The position numbers and the translations under genes were made by a program. DNA of 64,000 bases from Brevibacillus sp. DP1.3A (lineage in GTDB: Bacteria > Bacillota > Bacilli > Brevibacillales > Brevibacillaceae), in the NCBI RefSeq assembly GCF_013284245.2, contig NZ_CP085876.1:3207001-3271000 (forward strand), given 5' to 3'. The notes under the pieces are model-generated. The model had not been told where the DNA came from. It ran no database searches and worked only from the letters and a program-made list of their open reading frames with translations. Below are positions 7,335 to 63,421 of the stretch, one piece after another (positions within the stretch are counted from its first letter, which is position 1; each line of letters begins with the position of its first letter).

Positions 7335-7992
7335 ATGGTAACAGAAAAGGACAGGTACATTTTCGTGAAAATTCCTATCTGTATTCGAAACGGTAGAATC
7401 GATTTTGATCGATCTTTTTTCAAAATGGATTCTTTGAAGTTGCCTCAATGAGAGGGCTTCGGCTGGATTCCGCCATGATTCGTGGTTGATCGAAAAGGAA
7501 ACACCCTTTAAGTACCTCAATATAGAATGAACGGAAGTAGTAGGAACGATGAGGCAGACTCCTCAGAAAAAAATAAGGAGGACATCTTCCTATTCTTTTT
7601 TAAGAGAAAAGGCCTCACCTGAGAGAGAAGAGCTCCCAGGCAAGGCCTTTTCGTCCGTCAAATTAAACGCATAGACATTGGCGTTTAGTGGCGTTCTCGT
7701 TGCGGTTTTGCATGAAAAGGCTGTTTGCACGAGTGAGTCCTGCCCCAACGAGTGAAGAAAGATAATTAAGCGAGCTTGGCGCGATAGTCATCTATGATTC
7801 GATGCTCCATTTTTTCCTGTAGGTGGTCGGTAGTACTGGATTCATTATTAGTGAGACTGAAAACAATGAGTTTTCTCCGTAATGGAAGGCGGGGCCTGTA
7901 GGGTTTGTTATAAAGGAAGTCATAACTATATATCCGCAAAATTTGGCGTGCTACTATAGATAGAAATAGTCAGGATGAGGGGGAAACCAGTA
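7335..7992. other. Long intergenic region with one terminator-like hairpin
   Basis: About 650 bases. A bidirectional hairpin lies at 7607-7651. On the minus strand, 7759-7961 is an uninterrupted frame of about 68 codons ending in HLQEKMEHRIIDDYRAKLA, but it has no ATG or GTG start and I recognise no family; it could be a gene remnant. The last 20 bases are the leader of the next gene. Otherwise nothing is identifiable. Confidence 0.4.
7607..7651. terminator. Bidirectional intrinsic terminator
   Basis: AAAAGGCCT (7607-7615) pairs with AGGCCTTTT (7643-7651), enclosing a smaller CCTG/CAGG stem. A-run and T-run flank the stem, so it can work from either side; it would end the sigma/anti-sigma transcript. 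Confidence 0.65.
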
Positions 7993-9324
7993 ATGACAGA
8001 ATATAATCAGCGTGTTTTCGATGCATTGCCGCCCAAAGGGAGTAGCAGAGAGAAGGCTATCTCGGAGCTCGGAGCTAACGAGTCACTTGAGCTATTGCAT
8101 CTGGCAAGTACAGAGCGCGGGAAGAGTAAGCTTGCTGCCCAGAGGGCACTGGCTAAGATTGATTATGAACCGGCTGCAGCTTATTGGAAAAAGCTATTAA
8201 AGTCGCCTCAAAAATGCGAAAAAATAGTAAACCAAACATTCTCGAATACCGTGTCGGATCAGCTTGCTGATCGATTACTAGCTTTTTTGCAGACGTTTCT
8301 GGAGAAGAAGCCTGGCAGCAAGATCAGCTGGGAAGAGCATGATACACTGCTTGCCTTACTTGGCATGATGCCGGGCAAAGCAAGTGAGAAGATGTGCGAA
8401 GTGTATGAGTTTGCAGCAGAGCATATCCAGAAGATTTCATCATTTAAGCGCGACAGCGAGGTGCTAAAGTTAACCTACAGAGATACTTCTATCTTTCATA
8501 TAAGTGATACCTTGGAAGGGGTGACTTTAGAGCAAGCCTTTCCTATGATTTTGGTTGGCTCTGTTTTAATGGATGGAGATAGTAGGCTGCAAGCGCTGGC
8601 TTGCAAGCTATATGAACAATATGGGGGAGCCTGGCTGTCTCCTGTTTTCGCTTCTGCGCTTCTAACCAAGCCTGCTGGCGATGTTTTCGAGGAGTTTTCA
8701 CCTTATTACAAAGATCCGGTAGCGCAGCGTTTTATTTTGAACGTGCTAGGTACGGTGAAGTTTGATACTAAGCAAAATCGGCATACGTTTATGTTTGGCT
8801 GGGGTCATATGCTTAGGGATGATACATATTTTTCACTTACACCGCTGCTGTTTGAGGATTTGGATGTGCGCTGGATAGAACTTTTGGCAACTGATCCGGA
8901 GGAGAAAAAGCTAAGCGGTCTTATTAAAACGAGCTATTATGTAGGAAAAGTAACTGGAGAATTTGATGACGTGCTGGGTGATCTGCTTCCGCTAAATAAT
9001 GAAATTTGCTGCCAAAAGGTGCAATCGTATTTTCTGAAAAGAGCAATTCTGGATGATGGAATTGGCGCGACATATGTTGGTATTTTGTATCGGATAGGTT
9101 ATGAGGACGTTGAATCGATTCTTATGAAAAAATGGTCCCAAAAGGAAAATGCAACCTCTATTTGGAATGTGTCCAGTGATTTGCAGTCCTTTACCCATTG
9201 GCCAGCCCAGAAGAGAGCAGTTCTTTTTGAACAGGTTGGACAATTGGTTCAGGAGAAGAAATTAAAAATAAGTTATTGGAAGCCGGATACGGCGGAGGAG
9301 CTGAAGAACAAGTTGCTCAAGTAG
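7993..9324 (+). CDS. Hypothetical helical-repeat (HEAT-like) protein
   Basis: 443 aa from the ATG following the GAGGGGGA ribosome site; an in-frame ATG 18 bases upstream lies before that site and is unlikely. I do not recognise a named family. The sequence is soluble, strongly helical, with repeated short helix pairs such as LELLHLASTERGKSKLAAQRALAKI and ESILMKKWSQKENATSIW, suggesting an alpha-solenoid scaffold. There is no signal peptide, membrane helix or catalytic motif. Neighbours are unrelated, so context gives no function. Confidence 0.6.
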   Translation: MTEYNQRVFDALPPKGSSREKAISELGANESLELLHLASTERGKSKLAAQRALAKIDYEPAAAYWKKLLKSPQKCEKIVNQTFSNTVSDQLADRLLAFLQTFLEKKPGSKISWEEHDTLLALLGMMPGKASEKMCEVYEFAAEHIQKISSFKRDSEVLKLTYRDTSIFHISDTLEGVTLEQAFPMILVGSVLMDGDSRLQALACKLYEQYGGAWLSPVFASALLTKPAGDVFEEFSPYYKDPVAQRFILNVLGTVKFDTKQNRHTFMFGWGHMLRDDTYFSLTPLLFEDLDVRWIELLATDPEEKKLSGLIKTSYYVGKVTGEFDDVLGDLLPLNNEICCQKVQSYFLKRAILDDGIGATYVGILYRIGYEDVESILMKKWSQKENATSIWNVSSDLQSFTHWPAQKRAVLFEQVGQLVQEKKLKISYWKPDTAEELKNKLLK

Positions 9325-24075: not shown

Positions 24076-24384
24076 GTGCAAGAACTATCCGCAACACAAT
24101 TGAACCAATACCTACACGAAAAAGAGTCGGTCGCTCTTTTTGTCTATACACCGATGTGTGGGACCTGCAAGCTCGCTGCACGTATGCTCGGCGTCATGCA
24201 AGAAACATTGCCAACCGTTCCTCTGTATCAGATCAACATTAATACGGCGCCTGCATTGGCAGAACAGTGGCAAGTGACCAGCGTACCCGCCCTGCTCATT
24301 TTTCACAGAAATGAATTGTTAGAACGCCATTATGCGATCCAGTCCGTTGGATTTTTATACGATGTACTGAAACCTCTTGCCTAG
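24076..24384 (+). CDS. Thioredoxin-like protein
   Basis: 102 aa from a GTG eight bases after AAAGGAG; an in-frame GTG nine bases earlier overlaps the site. The redox motif is CGTC (C28, C31 by this numbering) within FVYTPMCGTCKLAARML, and the cis-Pro region reads WQVTSVPALLIFH. It lacks a signal peptide, so it should act in the cytoplasm. The active-site dipeptide Gly-Thr differs from the Gly-Pro of general thioredoxins, as in YtpP-like small thioredoxins. It has its own promoter and a Fur-type box further upstream. Confidence 0.87.
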   Translation: MQELSATQLNQYLHEKESVALFVYTPMCGTCKLAARMLGVMQETLPTVPLYQININTAPALAEQWQVTSVPALLIFHRNELLERHYAIQSVGFLYDVLKPLA

Positions 24385-24448
24385 ACATACACCTATTTCC
24401 TTCGCCATGAATATGACAAAGAGAGATGAAATGCGAAGGAGGAGGCGT

Positions 24449-25732
24449 ATGCAAATCCACGTGGTGGAAGAAGGACAAACCTTAGCAAGCATCGCCGAGA
24501 CGTACGGTACGACGCCGGAAGCGATCAACAAGGCGAACGAATTGCCAGATCCCAATAAGCTGGCAACTGGTCAGGCGATGGTGATCCCGATTGTAGGAAG
24601 CTACTATTGGGTCAAACAAGGGGATACGTTGTATACCATCGGTCAACGAAATCAGATCAGCGCAGCAGAGCTTGCTCGCGTCAATGGGATTTCTCCCTAT
24701 AAACCGCTACAAGTCGGGCAAAAGCTATATATCCCGCCTCGCCCTAGACGAGCGGCTGATTTCAATGCGTATGTGGAACCGCGCCGCACTGTCCCGCCAG
24801 CGATGGAAGCGGATGTTCGAACGGCTGCCCCTCATCTTACGTATTTGGCACCGTTCAGCTTTCGCATCAAACGGGATGGAACCCTCGAACCACCAACCCT
24901 GAACCATTTTCCGGCGATCGCAAAAGAAAACCAAGTCCTACTTTTGATGGTCGTGACGAATTTGGAAAAAGGTCAGTTCAGTACGGAATTGGGCGCACTC
25001 ATCCTGAATGACCAAGAGTTCCAGAACAAGTTGTTGGATAATATTCTCGCGACCGCCCGTGAGCTGGGTATGGGGGATATCCATTTTGATCTGGAAGCAT
25101 TGCCCACAACAGGGGCAGAAGCGTATGCGAACTTTTTGCGAAAAGCAAGGGACCGTATACATGCAGCAGGGTTGATGATGTCTGTTGCGCTCGCACCGAA
25201 GACGAGTGCCGAGCAAGCAGGCAAATGGTATTCCGCCCATGATTACAAGGCGATAGGAGCCCTTGCCGATTTTGTCGTGATCATGACGTATGAATGGGGC
25301 TATAGTGGTGGACCTCCCATGGCGGTTTCTCCGATCGGACCGGTGCGGCGTGTCTTGCAGTACGCCATTACCGAAATACCAGCCGAGAAAATTTTGATGG
25401 GCCAAAATCTGTACGGATACGACTGGACCTTACCGTACGAGCGAGGAACGACAGCGAAAGCTCTGAGTCCACAAGCGGCAATTGCTTTGGCTGCACAGCA
25501 TAATGCAGTGATCCGGTATGACTATCGCGCGCAGGCTCCGTTTTTTACGTACACCGATGATCAAGGCAAGCAACATCAGGTGTGGTTTGAGGATGCGCGG
25601 TCTATCCAAGCCAAGTTCAATCTGGTTAAACAGCTTGGTTTGAGAGGCGTCAGCTACTGGAAACTCGGTTTGCCATTTCCGCAAAATTGGCTGTTGATCG
25701 AGGAGAACTTTCGTGTCCGTAAGCGTGCATAG
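24449..25732 (+). CDS. LysM-GH18 protein, spore-cortex N-acetylglucosaminidase type
   Basis: 427 aa from the ATG behind GGAGGAGG. Two LysM domains (about residues 1-45, HVVEEGQTLASIAETYGTT; and 50-97, YWVKQGDTLYTIGQRNQ) bind glycan, followed by a GH18 domain in which DIHFDLEAL carries the catalytic Asp/Glu strand and IMTYEWGYSGGPPMAVSPI a substrate loop. There is no signal peptide, as in YaaH/SleL/YdhD proteins that are placed on the spore from the mother cell. It likely acts on cortex peptidoglycan during germination. The upstream end overlaps nothing but the thioredoxin stop region. Confidence 0.9.
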   Translation: MQIHVVEEGQTLASIAETYGTTPEAINKANELPDPNKLATGQAMVIPIVGSYYWVKQGDTLYTIGQRNQISAAELARVNGISPYKPLQVGQKLYIPPRPRRAADFNAYVEPRRTVPPAMEADVRTAAPHLTYLAPFSFRIKRDGTLEPPTLNHFPAIAKENQVLLLMVVTNLEKGQFSTELGALILNDQEFQNKLLDNILATARELGMGDIHFDLEALPTTGAEAYANFLRKARDRIHAAGLMMSVALAPKTSAEQAGKWYSAHDYKAIGALADFVVIMTYEWGYSGGPPMAVSPIGPVRRVLQYAITEIPAEKILMGQNLYGYDWTLPYERGTTAKALSPQAAIALAAQHNAVIRYDYRAQAPFFTYTDDQGKQHQVWFEDARSIQAKFNLVKQLGLRGVSYWKLGLPFPQNWLLIEENFRVRKRA

Positions 25733-33718: not shown

Positions 33719-35101
33719 TTAGGAGGAGAGGGGAAAACAAAGTTCTGCTGTCATCCCTTTTCCTGAATCGCTTGTTAACAGCAGGTGTCCATGATGAGCG
33801 GAAGCAATCCGTGCAACCATGGGCAACCCGAGACCATGACCATTGTGTAAAGGAGATTTTCTTTTTGACGAATAAGGCAATTCCATCAAGTCAGGCAGCA
33901 TGCTTTGCTCAATGCCTTTTCCGTTGTCAGTGATAATCAAGAGGGCATTGCGCTGGTTGGGTGACACGGTCGTTTGCACGTGGATGTGACAGCCTAATGG
34001 GTTATGCGCGATGCTGTTTTGGACTAGATTCGTGATGGCGCGGACAAGAAGTTTTTCATCGCCCATCACGAGGCACTGCTCAGTCGTGACATCCAGCTCG
34101 ATGGTAAACGTCTCTGCCAAATCATTGTTCAAAAAGTCAGTGACAATTTGCCGCGCAAGTGTCGATAGCCGAAGCGGTTTGGTATGAATGGGCTGCATTT
34201 CGTATTCCAGCATGGAAACGAGATTCAAGTCGCTGACCAGAGACCGGAGCTTTTCTCCTTGCTTTCGAATAATGCTTGCTTTTTGCTGCTGTTCAAAAGG
34301 CACCGCGTCGCTCTCTTCTAATTCACTGGCATACCCGAGCACCATCGATAATGGCGTGCGTATATCGTGGGAGATTCCCGCGATCCAGTTCGAGCGTGCT
34401 TCGTCTCTGGCTTTTAGTAAAGCGTTCTTCTCTTGCAGAAGCGACGATGCATGATTAATGCTTCTAGCAATCCCGCTGAACATTCCCTTTGCCTCGAGAT
34501 GTGTATGCTGATCTTCTGACAGGGCGTGAATCCCGCTAATCAGTGGGCGGATTGCCCGAATGAGTCGAGAGCCGATGAATAGCGAGAGAAGAGCGGCGAG
34601 TAGGATATTTCCGAAAAGCAAAGCCAGTAATCGATACGGCAAATCGCTTATCCAACTGATCGGGAAATGAAACTGGTACTTGGCGAGACTGTCCTTCGGG
34701 TAGCCCACGACGACTAGCCCCAACTCATGCTCCCAAACAAAAACAGGATAGTCCTGTAAGTAATTTCGCGAGAACTGCGCGACTTCTGCCAGAGAATAGG
34801 TGCGGGGCAATTGGTCCGGTATGGCGTAGTCCCAGATCACCTTCCCATCGTTCGCAATCAGCATGGCCCAAGCCTGGCTTTTTTGCAACCATTCTTGTGC
34901 ATTTGGTTCCAACGTATAGTGGGAACTGTTCTTGTGGAGACCTTCTGCCACAGCTTGTGTGACGTGAATGGGAGGAGATCCTTCGTTCATGCCTTTGAAA
35001 ACAAATGTGCCGAGAATGATGTAATTGACGATGAGCAAAAAGACGGCGATCAGGATAGAAGCACCTGTATAACGACGTAAAATTCGTGCGGCTCCATCCA
35101 T
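33719..35101 (-). CDS. Sensor histidine kinase
   Basis: 460 aa. Two membrane helices, at about 14-36 and 155-178, bracket an outside sensor loop of about 115 residues. The phospho-acceptor is H245 in GISHDIRTPLSMVLGYASEL; the N box is NLVQNSIAHNPLG, G1 is DNGKGIE and G2 is GHGLGLPMV. It pairs with the OmpR-type regulator encoded directly upstream and is divergent from an ABC exporter, suggesting it senses an envelope-active compound or peptide. Confidence 0.92.
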   Translation of the reverse strand: MDGAARILRRYTGASILIAVFLLIVNYIILGTFVFKGMNEGSPPIHVTQAVAEGLHKNSSHYTLEPNAQEWLQKSQAWAMLIANDGKVIWDYAIPDQLPRTYSLAEVAQFSRNYLQDYPVFVWEHELGLVVVGYPKDSLAKYQFHFPISWISDLPYRLLALLFGNILLAALLSLFIGSRLIRAIRPLISGIHALSEDQHTHLEAKGMFSGIARSINHASSLLQEKNALLKARDEARSNWIAGISHDIRTPLSMVLGYASELEESDAVPFEQQQKASIIRKQGEKLRSLVSDLNLVSMLEYEMQPIHTKPLRLSTLARQIVTDFLNNDLAETFTIELDVTTEQCLVMGDEKLLVRAITNLVQNSIAHNPLGCHIHVQTTVSPNQRNALLIITDNGKGIEQSMLPDLMELPYSSKRKSPLHNGHGLGLPMVARIASAHHGHLLLTSDSGKGMTAELCFPLSS

Positions 35102-35815
35102 CTACAGCTCTTCCTTTACAAGTAATTTGTATCCGAGTCCTCTTACCGTCAGCAAATATTCAGGAGCGGACGGACATGGCTCGATCTTTTCGCGAATGCG
35201 ACGCATATGAACCATCAGCGTGTTTTCATACCCGTAGTAATCGTCACCCCATACAGATTGGCACAGGGCATCACTCGTGACGATTCGTCCCCGATTTTCA
35301 TAGAGTTTTCGCAAGAGCGCGTGTTCCTTGGCGGTCAAAGCGTATTCGTAGTGATCTCTCGTCACGATTGCCGCCTCCAAATCGATCGTACTGTCACCAA
35401 GCTGGAAAACCGGCAGACGATCAATTTGGGGAGGAGCGTAAACGCGTCGTAAAATGACCAGGAGACGAAGAACGAGTTCGCGCGGCAAAAATGGCTTCAC
35501 GATATAGTCGTCAGCGCCTAGGCCAAGTCCGAGCAATCGATCCTCATCTTCGCCTCTCGCTGACAGAAAAATGACAGGGATTTGCGAGAAACGACGGATC
35601 GAAGTCAAAAGTCCAAATCCATCTCCATCAGGCAGCATGACATCCAGAATCGCCACATCTGGCTTGTCCGAAGTGCATATCACTAACGCCTCTTTACAAC
35701 TACCCGCATGAAAAATACGAGAGAATCCTTCCTTACGCAAAAATCCATCGATCATATTTCTGATTTCAAGCTCATCTTCCACGAGGAGCACTTTTTTCTG
35801 TTTCCACTCTTCCAT
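35102..35815 (-). CDS. OmpR/PhoB-family response regulator
   Basis: 237 aa. The receiver domain has acidic pocket LLVEDELEI and phospho-acceptor D58 in ILDVMLPDGDGFG, with conserved Lys in DDYIVKPFLPRELV. The winged helix C-terminus reads LTAKEHALLRKLYENRGRIVTSDALCQSVWG and TLMVHMRRIREKIEP. The stop codon abuts the kinase start. It probably controls the divergent ABC exporter through the heptamer repeats in the shared promoter region. Confidence 0.93.
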   Translation of the reverse strand: MEEWKQKKVLLVEDELEIRNMIDGFLRKEGFSRIFHAGSCKEALVICTSDKPDVAILDVMLPDGDGFGLLTSIRRFSQIPVIFLSARGEDEDRLLGLGLGADDYIVKPFLPRELVLRLLVILRRVYAPPQIDRLPVFQLGDSTIDLEAAIVTRDHYEYALTAKEHALLRKLYENRGRIVTSDALCQSVWGDDYYGYENTLMVHMRRIREKIEPCPSAPEYLLTVRGLGYKLLVKEEL

Positions 35816-35886
35816 ATTGAATCACCTGTATTTATTATACTCGCTCGATTTGTGTGTTCTACCCACTCGGAGTCGATTTAAGGTTG

Positions 35887-35904
35887 TTGTAAGATTCTTG
35901 TCAG
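35887..35904 (+). promoter_or_regulatory. Candidate response-regulator direct repeat
   Basis: TTGTAAG (35887-35893) and TTGTCAG (35898-35904) are heptamers spaced 11 bp start to start, on the same DNA face, between the divergent regulator and exporter genes. This is the typical geometry of OmpR-family sites. Confidence 0.4.
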
Positions 35905-35967
35905 CTTATCGACGGGTTGGAACTCTATGATTTCGTAGGAGAGACCAACAGATAGGAGCGAGAAAAG

Positions 35968-36879
35968 ATGAATACGGTGATTCGAACGGAAAACCTTTCA
36001 AAACGCTATGGAGGAGCCTATTCCGTCCAGCGGGTGAATCTTGCGGTAGGAGAAGGCGAGGTTTATGGCTTCCTCGGTCCAAATGGTGCAGGAAAATCGA
36101 CGACTCTTAAAATGCTGCTAGGATTAGTCAAGCCGACTGAAGGGAGTGTGTCCGTATTCGGGAAGGATTTTAGTAGGAACCGACTTGAGATTTTGAGTCA
36201 GACGGGTTCCTTGATCGAGGCTCCTTCCTATTACGGTCATCTTACCGGCCTGGAAAATATGCGTGTCATGCAGTGGCTGCGAGATGTCCCGGACAAACAT
36301 GTAGAGAAGGCCTTGCAAATCGTCCGTTTGGAAAAGCAACAGAACAAAAAGGTAGATCAGTATTCTCTCGGGATGAAGCAGCGACTGGGAATTGCTATGG
36401 CTTTGCTGCATTTTCCAAAGCTCGTCATCCTCGATGAACCGACAAACGGTCTGGACCCAGCGGGAATCGGTGAGATTCGGGAATTGATTCAATCGTTGCC
36501 ACATCAGTATGGAATGACCGTTTTGCTCTCCAGTCATCTACTCTCGGAAATCGAGCAAGTGGCTACGTCTATCGGTATTATTCACGGGGGGAAACTGCTG
36601 TTCCAAGGGAGTATGGAGCAACTGCAACGGAATAGTCAGCCTCATGTTTGGATGAAAACGCAGGACAATGAAAAAGCGAGAAGAGTTCTTCAAGAGATGG
36701 AACTTTCTACCAGTCTCCAAGATGGCTACCTGGTCATGGAAGGCATGGGGGATAGAGAGGTAGCGCAGACAAACCGGGCGCTGATTATGGCGGGCCTTGA
36801 TGTTTATCGCATTGAAGAGCACAAAAAAAGCTTGGAGAGTATTTTCCTCTCCCTAACAGGAAAGGAGGGGAGCTTGTAA
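35968..36879 (+). CDS. ABC transporter ATP-binding protein, BcrA/LanF type
   Basis: 303 aa. Walker A is GPNGAGKST, signature YSLGMKQR, Walker B LVILDEPTNGLDP, switch LLSSHLLSEIEQ. The C-terminal extension after residue 220 and the length match bacitracin and lantibiotic self-protection ATPases. It energises export or membrane extraction of a peptide antibiotic with the two permeases encoded next. Its stop codon TAA abuts the permease start. Confidence 0.9.
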   Translation: MNTVIRTENLSKRYGGAYSVQRVNLAVGEGEVYGFLGPNGAGKSTTLKMLLGLVKPTEGSVSVFGKDFSRNRLEILSQTGSLIEAPSYYGHLTGLENMRVMQWLRDVPDKHVEKALQIVRLEKQQNKKVDQYSLGMKQRLGIAMALLHFPKLVILDEPTNGLDPAGIGEIRELIQSLPHQYGMTVLLSSHLLSEIEQVATSIGIIHGGKLLFQGSMEQLQRNSQPHVWMKTQDNEKARRVLQEMELSTSLQDGYLVMEGMGDREVAQTNRALIMAGLDVYRIEEHKKSLESIFLSLTGKEGSL

Positions 36880-37628
36880 TGAGGACACTCTGGCTAGAGT
36901 TTTATAAAATTCGACATAAGCGTTTGTTTCTCATGCTTGTCATTCTTTTGAGCATCGAACTAGCATGGGGGTTTATGGCTGTCAGCATCTCCATGACAAA
37001 AAATCCGGATGCCGCAAAGTGGAGCGCTATTCTGGTCACGATTACAGCCATGAACGGATTGTTTTTGCCGATCGGTTCGGCTGTCATTGTTTCACGGATT
37101 TGTGATATGGAACACAAAGGGCGTACATGGAAGCTTCTGATAGCTGCTTCTGTCAGCCGAAAAGCGGTGTATGCGGCAAAATTCGTTTCTGCTGCTGTTT
37201 TGATGGGGGGGGCCGTCATTCTACAGGCTTTGGCGATCGTTGCATTTGGCATTGGTTATGGTTTAGCGGAGCCAGTCCCGATTGGCATATTACTACGCTT
37301 TGTAGCAGGGACTACGCTGACGAATCTCGTGGTGATTGCTCTGCAACAATGGCTCTCTCTCGCTATCAAAAATCAGGCATTTAGCCTATGCCTCGGGATG
37401 ATCGGGGGATTCATTGGCATGACAGCGGCCTTGTTTCCGCCACAAGTCGGACGCCTTTTCATCTGGTCATACTATGTAGACTTTTCTCCCGTTACGTATC
37501 AGTACGTGAACGAAACCATGCTGTTTACTACACGCGAAGTCGGCGTTCATTTGCCGATCATCGTCGTACTCATGGGCATCGCATTCTACCTTGCTGGGAG
37601 CATTCACGTATCCCGGCAAGACCTATAG
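36879..37628 (+). CDS. ABC permease subunit, LanE/MutE-like
   Basis: 249 aa with six hydrophobic helices and the opening LWLEFYKIRHKRLFLMLVIL, the E/K-rich amphipathic start typical of lantibiotic-immunity and BcrB-type permeases (ABC2-membrane fold). It begins at the last base of the ATPase stop codon. Paired with another permease of the same size directly downstream, as in LanFEG systems. Confidence 0.82.
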   Translation: MRTLWLEFYKIRHKRLFLMLVILLSIELAWGFMAVSISMTKNPDAAKWSAILVTITAMNGLFLPIGSAVIVSRICDMEHKGRTWKLLIAASVSRKAVYAAKFVSAAVLMGGAVILQALAIVAFGIGYGLAEPVPIGILLRFVAGTTLTNLVVIALQQWLSLAIKNQAFSLCLGMIGGFIGMTAALFPPQVGRLFIWSYYVDFSPVTYQYVNETMLFTTREVGVHLPIIVVLMGIAFYLAGSIHVSRQDL

Positions 37629-37640
37629 GGAGGACCTTGT

Positions 37641-38372
37641 ATGCTAATCAAATGTTTGGGAGCAGAATGGGTAAAACTGCGTCGTTCTCGTATTTGGCTC
37701 GTTTTGCTAATCCTTCCTGTTTTCAGTACGCTGATCGGTTTCGCCAACTACTGGATGAACCAAGCGATCCTGCAAAATGGCTGGTACAGCCTGTGGACGC
37801 AGGTGAGCTTGTTCTACGGAGAATTTTTCTTACCCATTCTCATCGCGATCTGCTGTTCGTTCGTGTGCAGACTGGAGCATGCAAATCGTAGCTGGAACGT
37901 GATACTGACAGCGCCTGTATCGACTCCAACGATTTTTATCGCGAAGCTGGTGGTGGTTGGCGTTCTCCTTTTTGTTGTGCAGCTTTTCTTCTTCGTGCTG
38001 TATATTTGCGCGGGCTTCATCGCTGGACTGCACGCACAGTTTTCGTTTCCTCCTGAAGTGTTCGGATGGATCATGCGAGGCTGGCTGGCTTCGCACACCA
38101 TCATCGCCTTCCAACTGTGGCTTTCCACGCGGATACAGAGCTTTGCTGTACCAGTCGGCATTAGTATTTGCACTGTTTTTGTAGGGTTGGGCTTGTATGT
38201 GTCTGGGCTGGGGATGTTTTTTCCTCTGTCGCTTTTAACGATTGGCATGGGCGTGCTCAGTCAAGAGAGTTTGTCGCTAGGAGAGTCGGGGACGTTTGTG
38301 GTCATGTGTGTATTGTTCGTGACGAGTGGCTGTGTACTTGGGATTCGCCGTCTTACGAGAGCGGGCATTTAA
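37641..38372 (+). CDS. ABC permease subunit, LanG/MutG-like
   Basis: 243 aa, six hydrophobic helices, with start ECLGAEWVKLRRSRIW-like amphipathic segment (actual KCLGAEWVKLRRSRIWLVLL). It is a divergent paralogue of the preceding permease and completes a one-ATPase, two-permease exporter. Begins 13 bases after the previous stop, with AGGGAGGA. Confidence 0.82.
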   Translation: MLIKCLGAEWVKLRRSRIWLVLLILPVFSTLIGFANYWMNQAILQNGWYSLWTQVSLFYGEFFLPILIAICCSFVCRLEHANRSWNVILTAPVSTPTIFIAKLVVVGVLLFVVQLFFFVLYICAGFIAGLHAQFSFPPEVFGWIMRGWLASHTIIAFQLWLSTRIQSFAVPVGISICTVFVGLGLYVSGLGMFFPLSLLTIGMGVLSQESLSLGESGTFVVMCVLFVTSGCVLGIRRLTRAGI

Positions 38373-38634: not shown

Positions 38635-39177
38635 TTAGCGGGATATCACTGTTATTTTTCGGATGGCTTCTTCTTGGGACAGCTGGTTCAGTTCGGTAAA
38701 GCCAAGGTTGGAAAGCGCAATCGTTTTTCCTTGATAGATGGGATAAACGCCTTGCCAGAGGCCTGCTGTACTGTATAGCTGTGATCCGCTGACTTTACGT
38801 AAAAACAACAAATAATTCCCTTCCGCCAGCGGCCCAGGATATTGTAGGTTGAGCGGACTGGAGGCGTCGGGAAGCGGTTCTACGCCAGTGCTAATCACTG
38901 TTAATAGTCTGGATGCTGTGCCTTTTATGGTCTTTTTTACCTGTAGTCTTTGTGTATAGTTCACGATCTTGCCTTGGGGAATGGTGCGTCCCGTTGGATA
39001 CGCCCGATGGGCACTGTCAACCCACGCGATGACGATCAAGTCACACTTTTTGACGAGCTCCGCAAGGGAAGAATAGGGGGAGGGATCTACTTGTACACGC
39101 CCGATGTCGGTTTGGGCATGGACGGGGAATGAAAAGGCGCAGAGAAGTGACAAACTGAGCAGCAATCGATAGAACAT
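38635..39177 (-). CDS. Hypothetical secreted protein
   Basis: 180 aa from the ATG following GGAGGAAATG; the longer reading to 39198 lacks a site. A signal peptide (FYRLLLSLSLLCAFSFPVHA-Q) precedes a compact mature domain: SLAELVKKCDLIVIAWVDSAH, YTQRLQVKKTIKGTASRLLTV and EGNYLLFLRKVSG. This looks like a small beta-barrel of the type found in secreted proteins that also carry YTF-RV-VLKG strands. No named family recognised. Confidence 0.65.
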   Translation of the reverse strand: MFYRLLLSLSLLCAFSFPVHAQTDIGRVQVDPSPYSSLAELVKKCDLIVIAWVDSAHRAYPTGRTIPQGKIVNYTQRLQVKKTIKGTASRLLTVISTGVEPLPDASSPLNLQYPGPLAEGNYLLFLRKVSGSQLYSTAGLWQGVYPIYQGKTIALSNLGFTELNQLSQEEAIRKITVISR

Positions 39178-39356
39178 GAAACCATTTCCTCCAAACAAAA
39201 GAAGTCTTGAAGGTAGTATGAACGGAATGGGGATCGTTCATGCCTGTAGGGTTTTAGTATAATGGTAATATTCAGAATAAATAGAATACGCGCTATCATG
39301 ATGGCGTACTGTGATTTGTTGGTTGAAATCGCCCAGACTATGACAAGGAGGTTATC

Positions 39357-42251
39357 ATGAATCATTTGTTTGCTTTTCGACGTGTCGGTACGTGGTTTTT
39401 TGTGTTGGCTCTCTTGTTGCAGGTAGCAGCTTCGCCTGCGCTAGCCAAGGAAGAGGTCACTTCTTCTAGTCCTCTTTCACTCAGCATAGAAAAATTCCTC
39501 GCCGATTTGAAAAACGATGAGAATAGCAAGGGGATGTACGCTGGAATCGCGGTCTACGATCTAACCGACAAAAAGTACGTATATAAGCATAATGCCGAAC
39601 GTAATTTTATCCCGGCTTCCAACATGAAGCTGTTCACGACAATTGCGGGTCTGGATAAGCTGGGGCCGGATTATCAGTGGAAGACCGAGGTGTTTGTTTC
39701 AGGAAAGGTAAATAACGGTGGCATTTTGCAAGGAGATTTGATTTTAAAAGGCTATGGGGACCCTAGCCTGAAGCCAGAGGATTTGCAGCAAATGGCAAAA
39801 GCCATCAAAGATTTGGGGATCCAACGAATCAATGGAAACCTGCTTCTCGATGACAGCTATTTCGATGAGACCAGATTGGGCATGAGCTGGATGTGGGATG
39901 ACGAACCGTATGGGTACAGCGCTCAGGTCAGTGGATTAGCCGTAAATAAAAACTTTACGACGCTAACCGCAACCCCTGGAAAAACGGTGAACGATGCCCC
40001 CGTCCTGACCATGAATCCGGCTACCACATACATAACAGTCACAAATCAGTTGAAAACGACAGCGGGCAAGGAGAGCAACGTGCTCGTCGAGCGCCTGCGC
40101 GGAAAAAATGAAATCATCGTATCCGGTACGATCGGGATGCAAGCAGCTCCTTATGATGAAGATGTCACGATGGAAGAGCCAGCTTTTTATGTGGGCGATC
40201 TATGGAAGGATCAGTTGGTGAAACAAGGGATTGCCTTACATCCAAAGACAGACGTGAAAAAAACAGTGCTGCAAAGCGGAGTACCGCTCTATACCCACTT
40301 GTCCAAACCGTTGGCTGAGATCACGATGGAGCTCAATAAGGATAGTGACAACTTCTATGCCGAGATGCTTGTAAAGACGCTTGGCATTACCGAGAAAAGC
40401 GAGGGCAGCTTTGAGGCAGGCAGTGAGGCTGTAGCTGACGTGATGAAGCGCGCTGGCATTGCGTCAGGTTTTCGCCAGGTAGATGGCTCGGGGTTATCGA
40501 GATTTAATATGATCACGCCAGAACAGATGATTGAAACCCTCATCTTTTTGCAGGAGCAAGAATATCGAACAGAACTGGAAAAATCACTCCCAATCGCAGG
40601 AGTGGACGGCACCTTGAAAAACCGCATGAAAGGAACAAGTGCGGAAAAGAATTTGTTTGCGAAGACAGGTTCGTTAAGCGGTGTCAATACCATGTCGGGT
40701 TATGTAACGGCAAAAAATGGTCATAAGCTGGCCTTTTCGATTTTGATCAACGGCATCTATAAATCGAAGTATGCGAGGGAGCTACAGGATCGAATCGGAA
40801 TTTTGTTAACAACTTATCCGGATATCGCAGCTCCGGAAGGTTTCAGCCCTCCAGAGAAAAAGACGTACCCACTCTCTGCTTTGATCGATCCCATCCTCGA
40901 TACGCCAGAAGCAGCAGGTGTAACGGCTGGAATCATGGTCAAATCGTTGGATTCATCAGGTGACCCTGTTTTATACGAACGGGATGCGGACACACTGCTT
41001 ACCCCAGCCTCGAATCTGAAGCTGCTGACGACTGCCACAGCATTGAACCAGCTTGGTTCAGATTACGTATTCAAAACGGAAGTGTATGGAGACTCATCGA
41101 TCACCTCTACGGGCGTACAACAAGGCAATCTGTATGTGAAAGGATACGGTGACCCTACTTTGCACACAGAGAATGCGCTACAAGTGCAGGAAGGTGTGTC
41201 GATTGAAAAAATAGCAGGGTGGCTCAAGCAACAAGGAATCACGCGTATCAACGGGAATCTCGTGATGGATGACAGCTACTTTGACCAACAACGGCTTGGC
41301 CTCGGCTGGGCATGGGATGACGAGAGCTACTATTACAACCCGACCATAGGGGCCCTAGCATTAAATCGTGGAACGGTCATGATCGAATTCAAGCCCGCTA
41401 ACGACGCTGGCGAACCAGTGGAAATCAACGTGCTTCCCAAAACAGCTTATGTGCAAGTGATCAATGAAGCGAAGACCGTACAAAAAGGGGAAGAAAATAC
41501 GTTTGCTATCCTGCGTGACCGTGGCACAAATACAATCAGACTGTCAGGAAACCTCCCTCTTGATCACGAAGGGGATTACGAGCGCGTACCCGTGGAAGAG
41601 CCAGCCAAGTACGTGGGGACCGTGCTGAAGGAAACGTTGGAGCAAGAAGGAATTGCGTTTGCTCCGAAAAGCGAAGTGTTGATCCAGCCAGTTCCTTCAA
41701 CAGCAGTGAAATGGACACAATTTGAGTCACTGCCGCTCAAGGAAATCGTTCAGTACCTCAACAAGCGCAGTGACAATTACTACGCCGAAATGCTTCTCAA
41801 GACACTCGGAGCCGCAAAGAAAGGGAAAGGAAGCGCAGCCGCTGGGGCAGAGGTGGTCACGGAAACTGTATCTTCGCTCGGCGGGAATACCACCTTCGAC
41901 ATGATCGATGGATCAGGATTGACGCGCTACAATCTTATTTCTGCTCGGCAGATCGCATCCGTACTGGAGGGAATGACCAAGGAATCGACATTTGCCACTT
42001 ATGATGAATCTTTACCCATAGCGGGAATCGATGGCACACTGAAAAACCGCTTGAAGGAAACGCCTGCCGCTAATAATCTTCATGCGAAAACAGGTTCGAT
42101 GACGGGTGTGAACACACTGTCGGGCTATCTCACGACCAAAGGCGGGGAGAAGCTCATCGTTTCGATTATGTTTAATGGTTATGTCGAGGATGAAGAGCTG
42201 TTTACCAAGATGCAGGACCAGATCATCACGATACTGGCCAGTTATGAATAG
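39357..42251 (+). CDS. Tandem two-domain S13 D-Ala-D-Ala carboxypeptidase/endopeptidase (PBP4/DacC type)
   Basis: 964 aa, twice the usual 450-500 for the family. A signal peptide ends near residue 30 (PALA-K). Domain 1, about residues 40-480, has SxxK at S88-K91 (PASNMK), SDN in KDSDNFYAEML and KTG at K436 (AKTGSLSGVN). Domain 2, about 505-964, repeats the plan: S552-K555 (PASNLK), SDN in KRSDNYYAEML and KTG at K911 (AKTGSMTGVN). Long matched segments (RINGNL, DDSYFD, GYGDP, IDGTLKNR) show an internal duplication, with both active sites intact. It should trim peptidoglycan cross-bridges and stem peptides outside the cell. Confidence 0.93.
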   Translation: MNHLFAFRRVGTWFFVLALLLQVAASPALAKEEVTSSSPLSLSIEKFLADLKNDENSKGMYAGIAVYDLTDKKYVYKHNAERNFIPASNMKLFTTIAGLDKLGPDYQWKTEVFVSGKVNNGGILQGDLILKGYGDPSLKPEDLQQMAKAIKDLGIQRINGNLLLDDSYFDETRLGMSWMWDDEPYGYSAQVSGLAVNKNFTTLTATPGKTVNDAPVLTMNPATTYITVTNQLKTTAGKESNVLVERLRGKNEIIVSGTIGMQAAPYDEDVTMEEPAFYVGDLWKDQLVKQGIALHPKTDVKKTVLQSGVPLYTHLSKPLAEITMELNKDSDNFYAEMLVKTLGITEKSEGSFEAGSEAVADVMKRAGIASGFRQVDGSGLSRFNMITPEQMIETLIFLQEQEYRTELEKSLPIAGVDGTLKNRMKGTSAEKNLFAKTGSLSGVNTMSGYVTAKNGHKLAFSILINGIYKSKYARELQDRIGILLTTYPDIAAPEGFSPPEKKTYPLSALIDPILDTPEAAGVTAGIMVKSLDSSGDPVLYERDADTLLTPASNLKLLTTATALNQLGSDYVFKTEVYGDSSITSTGVQQGNLYVKGYGDPTLHTENALQVQEGVSIEKIAGWLKQQGITRINGNLVMDDSYFDQQRLGLGWAWDDESYYYNPTIGALALNRGTVMIEFKPANDAGEPVEINVLPKTAYVQVINEAKTVQKGEENTFAILRDRGTNTIRLSGNLPLDHEGDYERVPVEEPAKYVGTVLKETLEQEGIAFAPKSEVLIQPVPSTAVKWTQFESLPLKEIVQYLNKRSDNYYAEMLLKTLGAAKKGKGSAAAGAEVVTETVSSLGGNTTFDMIDGSGLTRYNLISARQIASVLEGMTKESTFATYDESLPIAGIDGTLKNRLKETPAANNLHAKTGSMTGVNTLSGYLTTKGGEKLIVSIMFNGYVEDEELFTKMQDQIITILASYE

Positions 42252-42261
42252 GAATCACGCA

Positions 42262-42295
42262 AAAAAGGAGCCCCAATGTCGGGAGCTCCTTTTTC
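42262..42295. terminator. Intrinsic terminator
   Basis: AAAAAGGAGC pairs with GCTCCTTTTT (to 42294), with a CCC/GGG continuation; bidirectional in form. Confidence 0.88.
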
Positions 42296-61229: not shown

Positions 61230-61303
61230 TCGAAAAAACAGTGACGCAATTCGATTTTCCAGCGTCTTACAATTGGTTACATTAGACGATGGCGAGGAGA
61301 TTC

Positions 61304-63421
61304 ATGATGGTACGAAGAGAGAAATGGGTAGCATTATTGAGCTATACCGCGGTACTCTCCCTATTGACGACAAGTGGGATCGTTGCTGCATCCCCCGCGA
61401 AGGCAGTTTCCCAAAAAGTAGAAGTATCGACTGGTAAGACGGGCAATACCGAGGTGAAGCTACAGGCTTGCAGTCAAGATGATGCGATAGCGGATGTTTC
61501 GGACACGACGATGAAGTCCTGGAAACCATTGGAGAATAGGCCGGTACTGGAAGGGATTACTGCCATTGCAACAGGCGTAATTTTTGATGAAGCAGGCTAT
61601 GGGTGGAGGCCAGGCATTTCGTATGCCTTTACAGGGGATGGGCAAGTGTGGAAATGGGGCTATCAATCAGACAAAAAGTATGATCCGCACAAGCTAGCAG
61701 GGATCAAAGATGCCAAACAAGTCATGACGGATTATGTCCTCACGGGCACCGGTGAAGTCTGGCAGATCGATGAGAAGAAAGCACCAGAAAAACTGGCCGG
61801 TCTGGATAAAATCAAGAACATTCAGCAGCTCGACCTTCATGAAGGCGTACTCTTTTTACTAAAAGAAGATGGTACGGTACTGAAATGGGAAGAAGGAGCG
61901 AAAGCAGCAGAGAAGGTGACGAAGCTATCGAAAATCCGTGACATGTATAGCTCAGCCTTTTCCTTATTTCTAGTAGATGACCAAGGGAAGCTTCTTTATC
62001 TCGATGGCAAAACCGGAGAGCTGAACACAGAAAATCTGCAGGTAATGGATATCCCAGGGAAAGTAAAACAGGTAGCCGTCGATTACACGGATCGCGCCTT
62101 GATCCAAACAGAAAAGGGCGAAGTGTATAGCTACAATACAAAAGAAAACGAAAAAGTAGTACGTGCCGCTCATGCAGATGGTGCCACGCGGATGGCAGTT
62201 GGCGGAGAAGGATTGTACTTGGTCGTAAAAGCGGACGGAACTGTTTGGGGCTGGGGACATAATACACATGGAATGCTCGGAGTGAATCTGGAAAATGAGC
62301 TAGAGGAGCCTGTCAAAATAGCAGGTCTTGCCGATATTACAGACGTACAAGCGGGCACCGACCATGTGATTGCTCTCGATAAAAAAGGAAACGTCTATTC
62401 ATTTGGCAGCAATATGACAGGACAGCTGGGACGAATCCCTGTTGCCTTTGACAAATGGACAGAATTGGGCGAATTACGTGATGTAAAACAGGTAGTAACT
62501 GAGCTGGATCGACCGTACTTCGTTCGTAAGGATGGTTCTGTCTGGAGTTTTGGCGCGGATCGAATGCCATATGAAGTGAAAGGACCTACGAAAGTAAACA
62601 CATTGGATAGCATCCTGGATTCTCCGGTTACCTTGAATGAGAACGGACAAATCCAGTTGTGGAGCAGTGGATTTAGCAGCTGCGAAACATTGGCGTTGCC
62701 TTCTCGGATCAAGGATTTCGTTGGTGGGGAGGAGCATCTCTTGTTGCGTACGGAAGATGACAAATTCCTGACTGTAGAATTCAGCCATGATTCCGCCGAA
62801 CGCGGAGGGGTCTATGTCATCACGAACTTGCGCCCAAAAAAAGTGGAAACTCTTAAGATAGATTCAAAATTGGCAGCGGATGTGACCAAGCTTTATGCCA
62901 ATCTTTATACGTTTTTTGCTGTGACGAAAAATGGTCATGTATTGTACGCAGAACGGAAGAATGATGAGCCGTTCACTTCATTTGCACCAATAGCTGGTTT
63001 GGAAGGAATTCGGGAGCTTGCACCTGAGTATTTTGTCCGTTATACAAAGGATATCGCACCAGTTTGGGCGATCAACGGAGCAGGCAAGGTTCAGGAAATT
63101 CAGGCTTACCCTGAGAGCGAAGGAAATGACGCAGGAGCTATCAAAGTGAAGCTGGAATCCAAAACGGAAGAAGGCATTGCCATGATGAGCGGACGTTTGC
63201 GGATTACCAAGGATGGGCAAATCTTCGAACATGAATGGGAACCGCTTAAAAAGCAAAAAGTGGCTGCACCTGTTAAACTAATTTCTTCTTCGTACGACTA
63301 TGCGATCGAAGGACCAGGCTCGCACTACCATGTGCTGGTCACCGAAAATGATAAGATCGTATTGATTGGGGATAATCCATACGGAAAAGGTGAGCGACAA
63401 CCAGATATGGTGAGACAATAA
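61304..63421 (+). CDS. Secreted RCC1-repeat protein
   Basis: 705 aa from the ATG after GCGAGGAG. A signal peptide ends near AASPAKA. The rest is a series of about 50-residue beta-propeller units of the RCC1 type; the clearest are ADGTVWGWGHNTHGMLGVNL followed by VQAGTDHVIALDKKGNVYSF and GSNMTGQLGR. Other blades carry DGQVWKWG, DGTVLKWE, DGSVWSFG. RCC1 propellers bind proteins or ligands; secreted bacterial forms have no settled role. Gene ends at a strong terminator. Confidence 0.88.
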   Translation: MMVRREKWVALLSYTAVLSLLTTSGIVAASPAKAVSQKVEVSTGKTGNTEVKLQACSQDDAIADVSDTTMKSWKPLENRPVLEGITAIATGVIFDEAGYGWRPGISYAFTGDGQVWKWGYQSDKKYDPHKLAGIKDAKQVMTDYVLTGTGEVWQIDEKKAPEKLAGLDKIKNIQQLDLHEGVLFLLKEDGTVLKWEEGAKAAEKVTKLSKIRDMYSSAFSLFLVDDQGKLLYLDGKTGELNTENLQVMDIPGKVKQVAVDYTDRALIQTEKGEVYSYNTKENEKVVRAAHADGATRMAVGGEGLYLVVKADGTVWGWGHNTHGMLGVNLENELEEPVKIAGLADITDVQAGTDHVIALDKKGNVYSFGSNMTGQLGRIPVAFDKWTELGELRDVKQVVTELDRPYFVRKDGSVWSFGADRMPYEVKGPTKVNTLDSILDSPVTLNENGQIQLWSSGFSSCETLALPSRIKDFVGGEEHLLLRTEDDKFLTVEFSHDSAERGGVYVITNLRPKKVETLKIDSKLAADVTKLYANLYTFFAVTKNGHVLYAERKNDEPFTSFAPIAGLEGIRELAPEYFVRYTKDIAPVWAINGAGKVQEIQAYPESEGNDAGAIKVKLESKTEEGIAMMSGRLRITKDGQIFEHEWEPLKKQKVAAPVKLISSSYDYAIEGPGSHYHVLVTENDKIVLIGDNPYGKGERQPDMVRQ

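Follow-up and report, generated by a model that had tools for sequence, protein, structure and literature searches.

Two S13 domains in one chain

Why would a DD-peptidase of family S13, whose single-domain members measure about 450–500 residues, carry two catalytic domains in one chain? The question is raised by a gene of Brevibacillus sp. DP1.3A located in a stretch of 64,000 nucleotides of contig NZ_CP085876.1 (positions 3,207,001 to 3,271,000), hereafter the window, where an open reading frame (ORF) at 39357–42251 of the forward strand begins with ATG and encodes 964 amino acids (aa). Judged by its sequence, the product would be a secreted class C1 penicillin-binding protein (PBP) of the PBP4/DacC/R39 type in which two S13 modules are arranged head to tail. 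The reading developed below, to which we give a slightly better than even chance, is that this protein is a covalently fixed PBP4-type pair and that the wider lineage keeps the pair together with at least one live site, a module whose site is lost (a dead module) serving as partner. The gene and its main parts are:

39357..42251, + strand: two-domain S13 DD-peptidase gene, 964 aa (PF02113 twice; TIGR00666)
39357..39446, + strand: putative signal peptide of Sec type, ending near residue 30 (...ASPALA-K), read by eye; the model has a helix at 3–25 and low confidence at 24–36
39471..40817, + strand: N-terminal S13 domain, residues 39–487 (by sequence; structural match to 1w5d, Z 49.0, 444 residues aligned)
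40818..40871, + strand: linker, about residues 488–505 (approximate boundaries)
40872..42242, + strand: C-terminal S13 domain, residues 506–962 (by sequence)

The Pfam profile PF02113 (Peptidase_S13) matches the protein twice, with 778.8 bits against a cut-off of 22.8, while the NCBIfam model TIGR00666 (PBP4) gives 679.8 bits against a cut-off of 107.8. A profile search of the whole genome resolves two separate copies in the gene, at profile positions 5–440 and 3–442 of 444, so that the two complete S13 domains proposed in the preliminary description are both full length; the same search of the whole 6.66 Mb returned no further S13 match outside 39357–42251 at E ≤ 0.001. Aligned with each other by BLASTP, as the preliminary description had advised, the N-terminal (N) and C-terminal (C) halves share 190 identical residues over 463 columns (41%, E 6e-114). 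The linker between them has fewer than 20 residues, within approximate boundaries, and is also short in the relatives compared. With two domains in 964 residues the protein lies outside the usual single-domain length, and the layout is taken as an S13 variant because each half, taken alone, is recognised by the S13 profile and carries SxxK, SxN and KTG in this order.

The AlphaFold2 model of the protein has a mean predicted local distance difference test score (pLDDT) of 91.3 and a predicted template modelling score (pTM) of 0.86, with both halves modelled at high confidence; the latter score suggests a defined arrangement of the two halves. The low-confidence parts comprise residues 24–36 and the C-half loop 652–658, which holds Asp-655. 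The N half superposes on Bacillus subtilis PBP4a (1w5d) with a Z-score of 49.0 and a root-mean-square deviation of 1.5 over 444 aligned residues, the rows of this alignment corresponding to model residues 36–491, i.e. to the N half, with the C half assigned by sequence. PBP4a also ranks first in a Foldseek search with the model. Among proteins of solved structure, both halves are related to B. subtilis PBP4a, Actinomadura R39 and the PBP4 proteins of Escherichia coli and Haemophilus influenzae.

Catalytic motifs and meso-diaminopimelate pocket

The residues on which the assignment of the two sites is based were located by alignment:

39618..39629, + strand: N-half SxxK, S88–K91
39900..39917, + strand: N-half pocket D182 and Y187, in the columns of E. 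coli PBP4 D155 and F160 (pocket role after an excerpt of PMC3276566)
40344..40352, + strand: N-half SDN, 330–332
40500..40502, + strand: N-half pocket R382, in the column of E. coli R361
40662..40670, + strand: N-half KTG, 436–438
41010..41021, + strand: C-half SxxK, S552–K555
41319..41336, + strand: C-half pocket D655 and Y660 (loop 652–658 with pLDDT below 50)
41769..41777, + strand: C-half SDN, 805–807
41925..41927, + strand: C-half pocket R857
42087..42095, + strand: C-half KTG, 911–913

SxxK, SDN and KTG of the N half fall in the same alignment columns as those of the C half, and the positions that the preliminary description had given for them (S88/K91, SDN and K436; S552/K555, SDN and K911) are correct. 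The stretch from the residue after the SxxK lysine to the serine of SxN comprises 239 residues in the N half and 250 in the C half; the corresponding PBP4a insert is given as 217 residues in a passage of PMC4604126. In E. coli PBP4 the side chain of meso-diaminopimelic acid (meso-Dap, mDap) is accommodated in a pocket formed by D155, F160 and R361, according to an extract of PMC3276566, and D155 and R361 matter for endopeptidase activity as stated in a passage of PMC9166362. When the window protein is aligned with E. coli DacB, these columns hold D182, Y187 and R382 in the N half and D655, Y660 and R857 in the C half, so that D, F/Y and R appear as DYR in both. Because the pocket columns are filled in both halves, both seem equipped for the same kind of peptide. 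The pocket Arg is not universal, as some single-domain S13 members have His or Met in its place.

Since neither module lacks a catalytic motif or a meso-Dap pocket residue, both are expected to be active. From their motifs, both are predicted to be acylated by penicillin, and both would cut D-Ala-D-Ala ends or D-Ala-mDap cross-links through the usual acyl-serine route, which is established for the S13 family.

Distribution of the layout

The closest named relatives are found in Brevibacillus fortis, B. porteri and B. formosus (94% identity in the best segment). Two adjacent S13 domains are present in 37 of the 39 genomes of the window's family, and the other two (G033 and G037) gave no S13 match. 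In the class sample the layout occurs, by our own count from the table, in 41 of 299 genomes, of which 25 belong to the window's family and 16 lie elsewhere, in the family codes f12 (which includes Aneurinibacillus aneurinilyticus), f18, f27, f30, f31 and f39. Among the matches listed for the phylum sample of 348 genomes, two full matches in one frame are confined to the window genome. Two full S13 copies in one frame were likewise absent from the matches listed for 149 genomes of the phylum of a Streptomyces record and for 118 genomes of the phylum of an Ignavibacteriales record; the negatives outside the class rest on these two phyla and the Bacillota sample, with the matches listed ending at weak ones. 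The layout is thus common in one corner of Bacilli, and none was seen elsewhere in the genomes sampled.

An assembly artefact or a chance fusion has a negligible probability against this background. Halves that are 41% identical do not derive from a duplicated read; the divergence between them in DNA is too great for an assembly duplication, which is excluded, and the same gene is found in independently sequenced relatives. The recurrence of the layout in 37 of 39 family genomes speaks against a chance fusion. The preliminary description had allowed that the layout might turn out to be common and already described. It is common within this lineage, in the 37 family genomes and in the 16 genomes of six other families, but no description of a two-domain S13 form, or of alternating site loss, was found in searches of open-licence papers.

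Among the 37 family proteins only L045 (genome G003; 7440–7720) has its halves in different frames, whose overlap falls in a C-rich part of the linker. Since no signal peptide is visible for the second frame, the case is interpreted as a break of the frame, either genuine or introduced by sequencing. Adjacent single-domain S13 frames on the same strand were observed in three genomes of the 149-genome sample (G685, G723 and G767) and are possible unfused counterparts.

Age and origin of the pair

Domain trees were built from 148 distinct domains, a quick one with 106 rows and a careful one with 79. Two views of the window gene (L001 and L002), L021 (the L045 gene), the truncated L055 and the second views L112 and L113 were excluded from the domain alignment and the trees, L112 being used later for G018. 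Near-copies were dropped from both trees, and the careful one is also without rows that are long or fast, L082, L105, L106 and L030 among them. The N halves form one group (support 94/84 in the careful tree, 76 in the quick one). A second group (100/99 and 99, respectively) unites the C halves with four single-domain paralogues from the window's family. As each half follows its own line through the families, the pairing predates all seven of them. Single-domain S13 genes (L094, L095, L096, L097 and L098) occur in five genomes of the window's family; the four that were treed, L096 being omitted as a near-copy, all fall inside the C group and thus look like freed C halves.

How the pair arose is less clear-cut. 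In the free tree the C halves lie closer to ordinary DacC-type proteins than they do to the N halves (97/84), a topology that would imply a fusion of two genes that had diverged before. Constraining the N and C halves to a single clade costs only 2.7 log units, with a p-value of 0.41 in the approximately unbiased (AU) test, so that an internal duplication and a fusion of diverged S13 genes are equally good explanations. The internal duplication of the preliminary description is therefore possible, but it is not shown. Both halves carry SDN where most single-domain sequences have SNN or SQN, a weak hint in the sequences at a common origin, limited by the occurrence of SDN in several distant single-domain S13 proteins.

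Active-site states across the lineage

The catalytic residues were read for all 53 two-domain proteins of the family and class samples. Both halves are complete in 33, including the window protein. The C half is dead and the N half complete in 11 (G015–G017, G026, G028–G030, G035, G038, G167 and G197), the reverse applies to seven (G075, G105, G151, G191, G220, G260 and G307), and the N half has GDN for SDN in two (G244 and G252). Both sites are dead in none of the 53. In a quick full-length tree the state of the C site changes at least six times and that of the N site at least twice, the starred branches forcing four and one, with the positions of several dead rows less sure since these are long. 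Losses of the C site and of the N site fall in separate major clades. Since the site of either half can be lost without loss of the module itself, what is conserved is the pairing together with a minimum of one live site, and not the possession of two sites. The 16 named relatives L032–L047 have both sites complete, as read from an alignment that lists identical domains once.

The two live sites of the Brevibacillus protein could cooperate on the same peptidoglycan network, through avidity or by cutting adjacent cross-links processively. In agreement with cooperation, the window protein has its two sites and their pocket residues intact, 24 of the 27 members of the clade that unites the window's genus with G032 have two live sites, and both halves are constrained. 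Set against this is the loss of one site, with the pair kept, in 18 of the 53 two-domain proteins, and we consider this explanation unlikely. Processive action at two sites, as suggested in the preliminary description, is thus possible for Brevibacillus but cannot explain the layout everywhere, because those 18 proteins have one dead site.

A division of labour, with one half mainly a DD-carboxypeptidase and the other mainly a DD-endopeptidase, or with halves that differ in penicillin affinity or in stage of action, is possible yet on the unlikely side. The divergence of the halves is older than the split of the families, their identity is no more than 41%, and around the first pocket residues the N half reads WMWDDEPYGYS, the C half WAWDDESYYYN. 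Free C-type paralogues, moreover, coincide with a dead C half, in four of the five genomes with a paralogue and in five of the 32 without (Fisher p 0.008, from only about two independent cases), which points to an exchange of duties, as if the free copy could take over. The catalytic and pocket residues of the two window halves are nevertheless identical, and neither role can be needed everywhere because losses hit either half in different clades.

Constraint on the dead halves

The ratio of nonsynonymous to synonymous substitution rates (dN/dS) was estimated by the Nei-Gojobori method. Between the window protein and eight near relatives it amounts to 0.078–0.152 for either half, which bears out the earlier proposal that the two domains are preserved under selection. 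Six pairs in which both members have the same dead half were measurable, and in five of them the constraint on the dead half is similar to that on its live counterpart. The dead C halves of three pairs among three near species give 0.087, 0.097 and 0.104, against 0.129, 0.121 and 0.087 in the live N halves; the dead N halves of two further pairs give 0.146 and 0.099 (the latter at a synonymous divergence, dS, of 1.6–2.1), against 0.129 and 0.090 in the live C halves. The sixth pair, G016/G017, has a looser dead C half (0.171, against 0.074 for the live N half). In the mixed pair L006/L014, where a live C half is compared with a dead one, the values are 0.150 for the C half and 0.130 for the N half.

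The same picture emerges from the alignment columns. Dead C halves retain 72–91 of the 97 non-catalytic columns (74–94%) that are invariant in live C halves, while they retain 1–5 of the seven catalytic columns; the count covers 10 of the 11 dead C halves, G167 being left out as its KTG region does not align, and takes as reference 31 live C halves, without G167 and the far clade (f18, f30, f31 and f39). For the N-dead relative G105, both halves are predicted to fold (AlphaFold2 pLDDT 90.6, pTM 0.87), from an input alignment that contains live relatives.

These values bear on the explanation by which the second domain is tolerated baggage, a neutral relic whose dead halves are decaying. The repeated loss of one site, the two family genomes G033 and G037 that gave no S13 match and the looser dead C half of G016/G017 would all be expected under it. 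Decay is difficult to reconcile with dN/dS values of 0.087–0.146 for dead halves in the other five measurable pairs, with their predicted fold and retained non-catalytic columns, or with the persistence of the layout in seven families, and we regard this explanation as quite improbable.

A proposed covalently fixed pair

The reading of the protein as a fixed PBP4-type pair draws on what is described for E. coli PBP4, which in solution is predominantly a homodimer and whose catalytically dead S62G variant still reaches midcell, more diffusely, according to passages of PMC9166362. Pairing and non-catalytic roles thus have a precedent in the E. coli dimer and in the localisation of S62G. By analogy, the fused pair may be a permanent version of the PBP4 dimer, and its halves may pack in a dimer-like manner. 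The dead module would stay folded, as predicted, and selected, and would act as a partner, possibly by fixing geometry, by keeping hold of an adjacent glycan or peptide stem, or by binding another protein. A more specific form of this proposal, which we find plausible at somewhat less than an even chance, is that of a one-chain PBP4 heterodimer in a Bacilli lineage. Its essential feature would be a pair in which at least one site is live, and a dead half would be a pseudo-penicillin-binding module under selection, serving the live half by positioning, by regulation or by holding the substrate.

Several observations weigh against the fixed-pair reading or narrow it. Both sites of the window protein are intact, so the idea of one live module and one partner is not directly applicable to it, and its C-half pocket loop 652–658 is modelled at a pLDDT below 50. 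By our own count, the pocket Asp is kept in only six of the 18 dead halves, and in five genomes a live C half carries Asn in that column, so that this residue is not strictly kept even in live sites. On the side of the reading, the Arg column is kept in 17 of the 18 dead halves (own count), where the residue may be structural. Holding of a peptide by dead halves is, from these residues, weakly supported. The comparison of constraint is also affected by the high dS of the second N-dead pair, by the looser dead C half of G016/G017 and by several wider pairs that gave no dN/dS value because dS was saturated.

The contribution of a second subunit is hard to test in a homodimer such as that of E. 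coli PBP4. Here both subunits belong to one gene and can be mutated separately, and natural versions with either active site removed exist, so that a role of the partner module is directly testable; if true, it would be a case of a pseudoenzyme among the penicillin-binding proteins.

Relation to known S13 proteins

In sequence, neither half departs from an ordinary S13 (class C1) PBP, and the two-domain protein is thus a variant layout of a known kind. B. subtilis DacC/PBP4a (1w5d), which ranks first among solved proteins in the sequence comparison of either half and in the structural comparison of the N half, shares the family, the fold, the SxxK, SxN and KTG motifs and the insert between SxxK and SxN. 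It differs by a single catalytic domain in a chain of 462 residues, by SNN where the window halves have SDN and by His in the column of R382 and R857. Membrane binding through a lysine patch, ascribed to PBP4a in an excerpt of PMC4604126, was considered for the window protein, both of whose halves are net negative by residue count. Actinomadura R39 (1w79) has the same fold (Z 46.3), the same motif set and an Arg in the pocket column, with one domain. E. coli PBP4/DacB (2ex2) belongs to the same family and its D155, F160 and R361 columns are matched in both window halves; in contrast, its two chains have one domain each, and the identity in the structural alignment is 26%. Bdellovibrio Bd3459 and Bd0816 are distant fold relatives with one catalytic domain and, according to a passage of PMC3276566, lack counterparts of the meso-Dap pocket residues. 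The proteins L032–L047 (from Brevibacillus species, one Aneurinibacillus and one record titled Anoxybacillus sediminis) have the same layout at 51–94% identity in the best segment, with both sites complete, whereas other members of the window's family carry a dead C half. Two-domain S13 architectures are, as a guess, likely to be listed in domain databases.

Gene context and other genes of the window

Two further elements flank the coding sequence, the second found in a hairpin scan of the region that gave eight hairpins against 4.1 expected:

39345..39351, + strand: Shine-Dalgarno sequence AAGGAGG, 5 bases before the ATG, read by eye
42271..42284, no strand assigned: hairpin after the stop codon, a possible terminator, flagged on the − strand only, its + strand role read by eye

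The neighbouring genes encode a secreted protein without family, Ldh_2, panD, an ATP-grasp-like ORF (our own label) and BrnQ. In the 14 of 16 named two-domain loci compared, they adjoin the two-domain gene in seven and are mostly gone in the rest, and gene context thus says little on function. A 187-aa secreted-looking protein at 38635–39198 (− strand) is divergent from the S13 gene and lies beside it in eight of the 14 loci; it matched no Pfam or NCBIfam family. Farther upstream, 33719–38372 contains a two-component system whose closest NCBIfam matches are VanR- and PhoR-like, all below cut-off, a divergent ATP-binding cassette (ABC) transporter whose ATPase is nearest to a lantibiotic-protection subfamily (below cut-off), and, running in the same direction, two more ORFs (249 and 243 aa). 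Elsewhere in the window, a 449-aa ORF at 7975–9324 has no Pfam family over the cut-off, 24377–25732 encodes a protein with LysM and glycoside hydrolase family 18 domains, and 61289–63421 encodes a 710-aa protein with RCC1 repeats.

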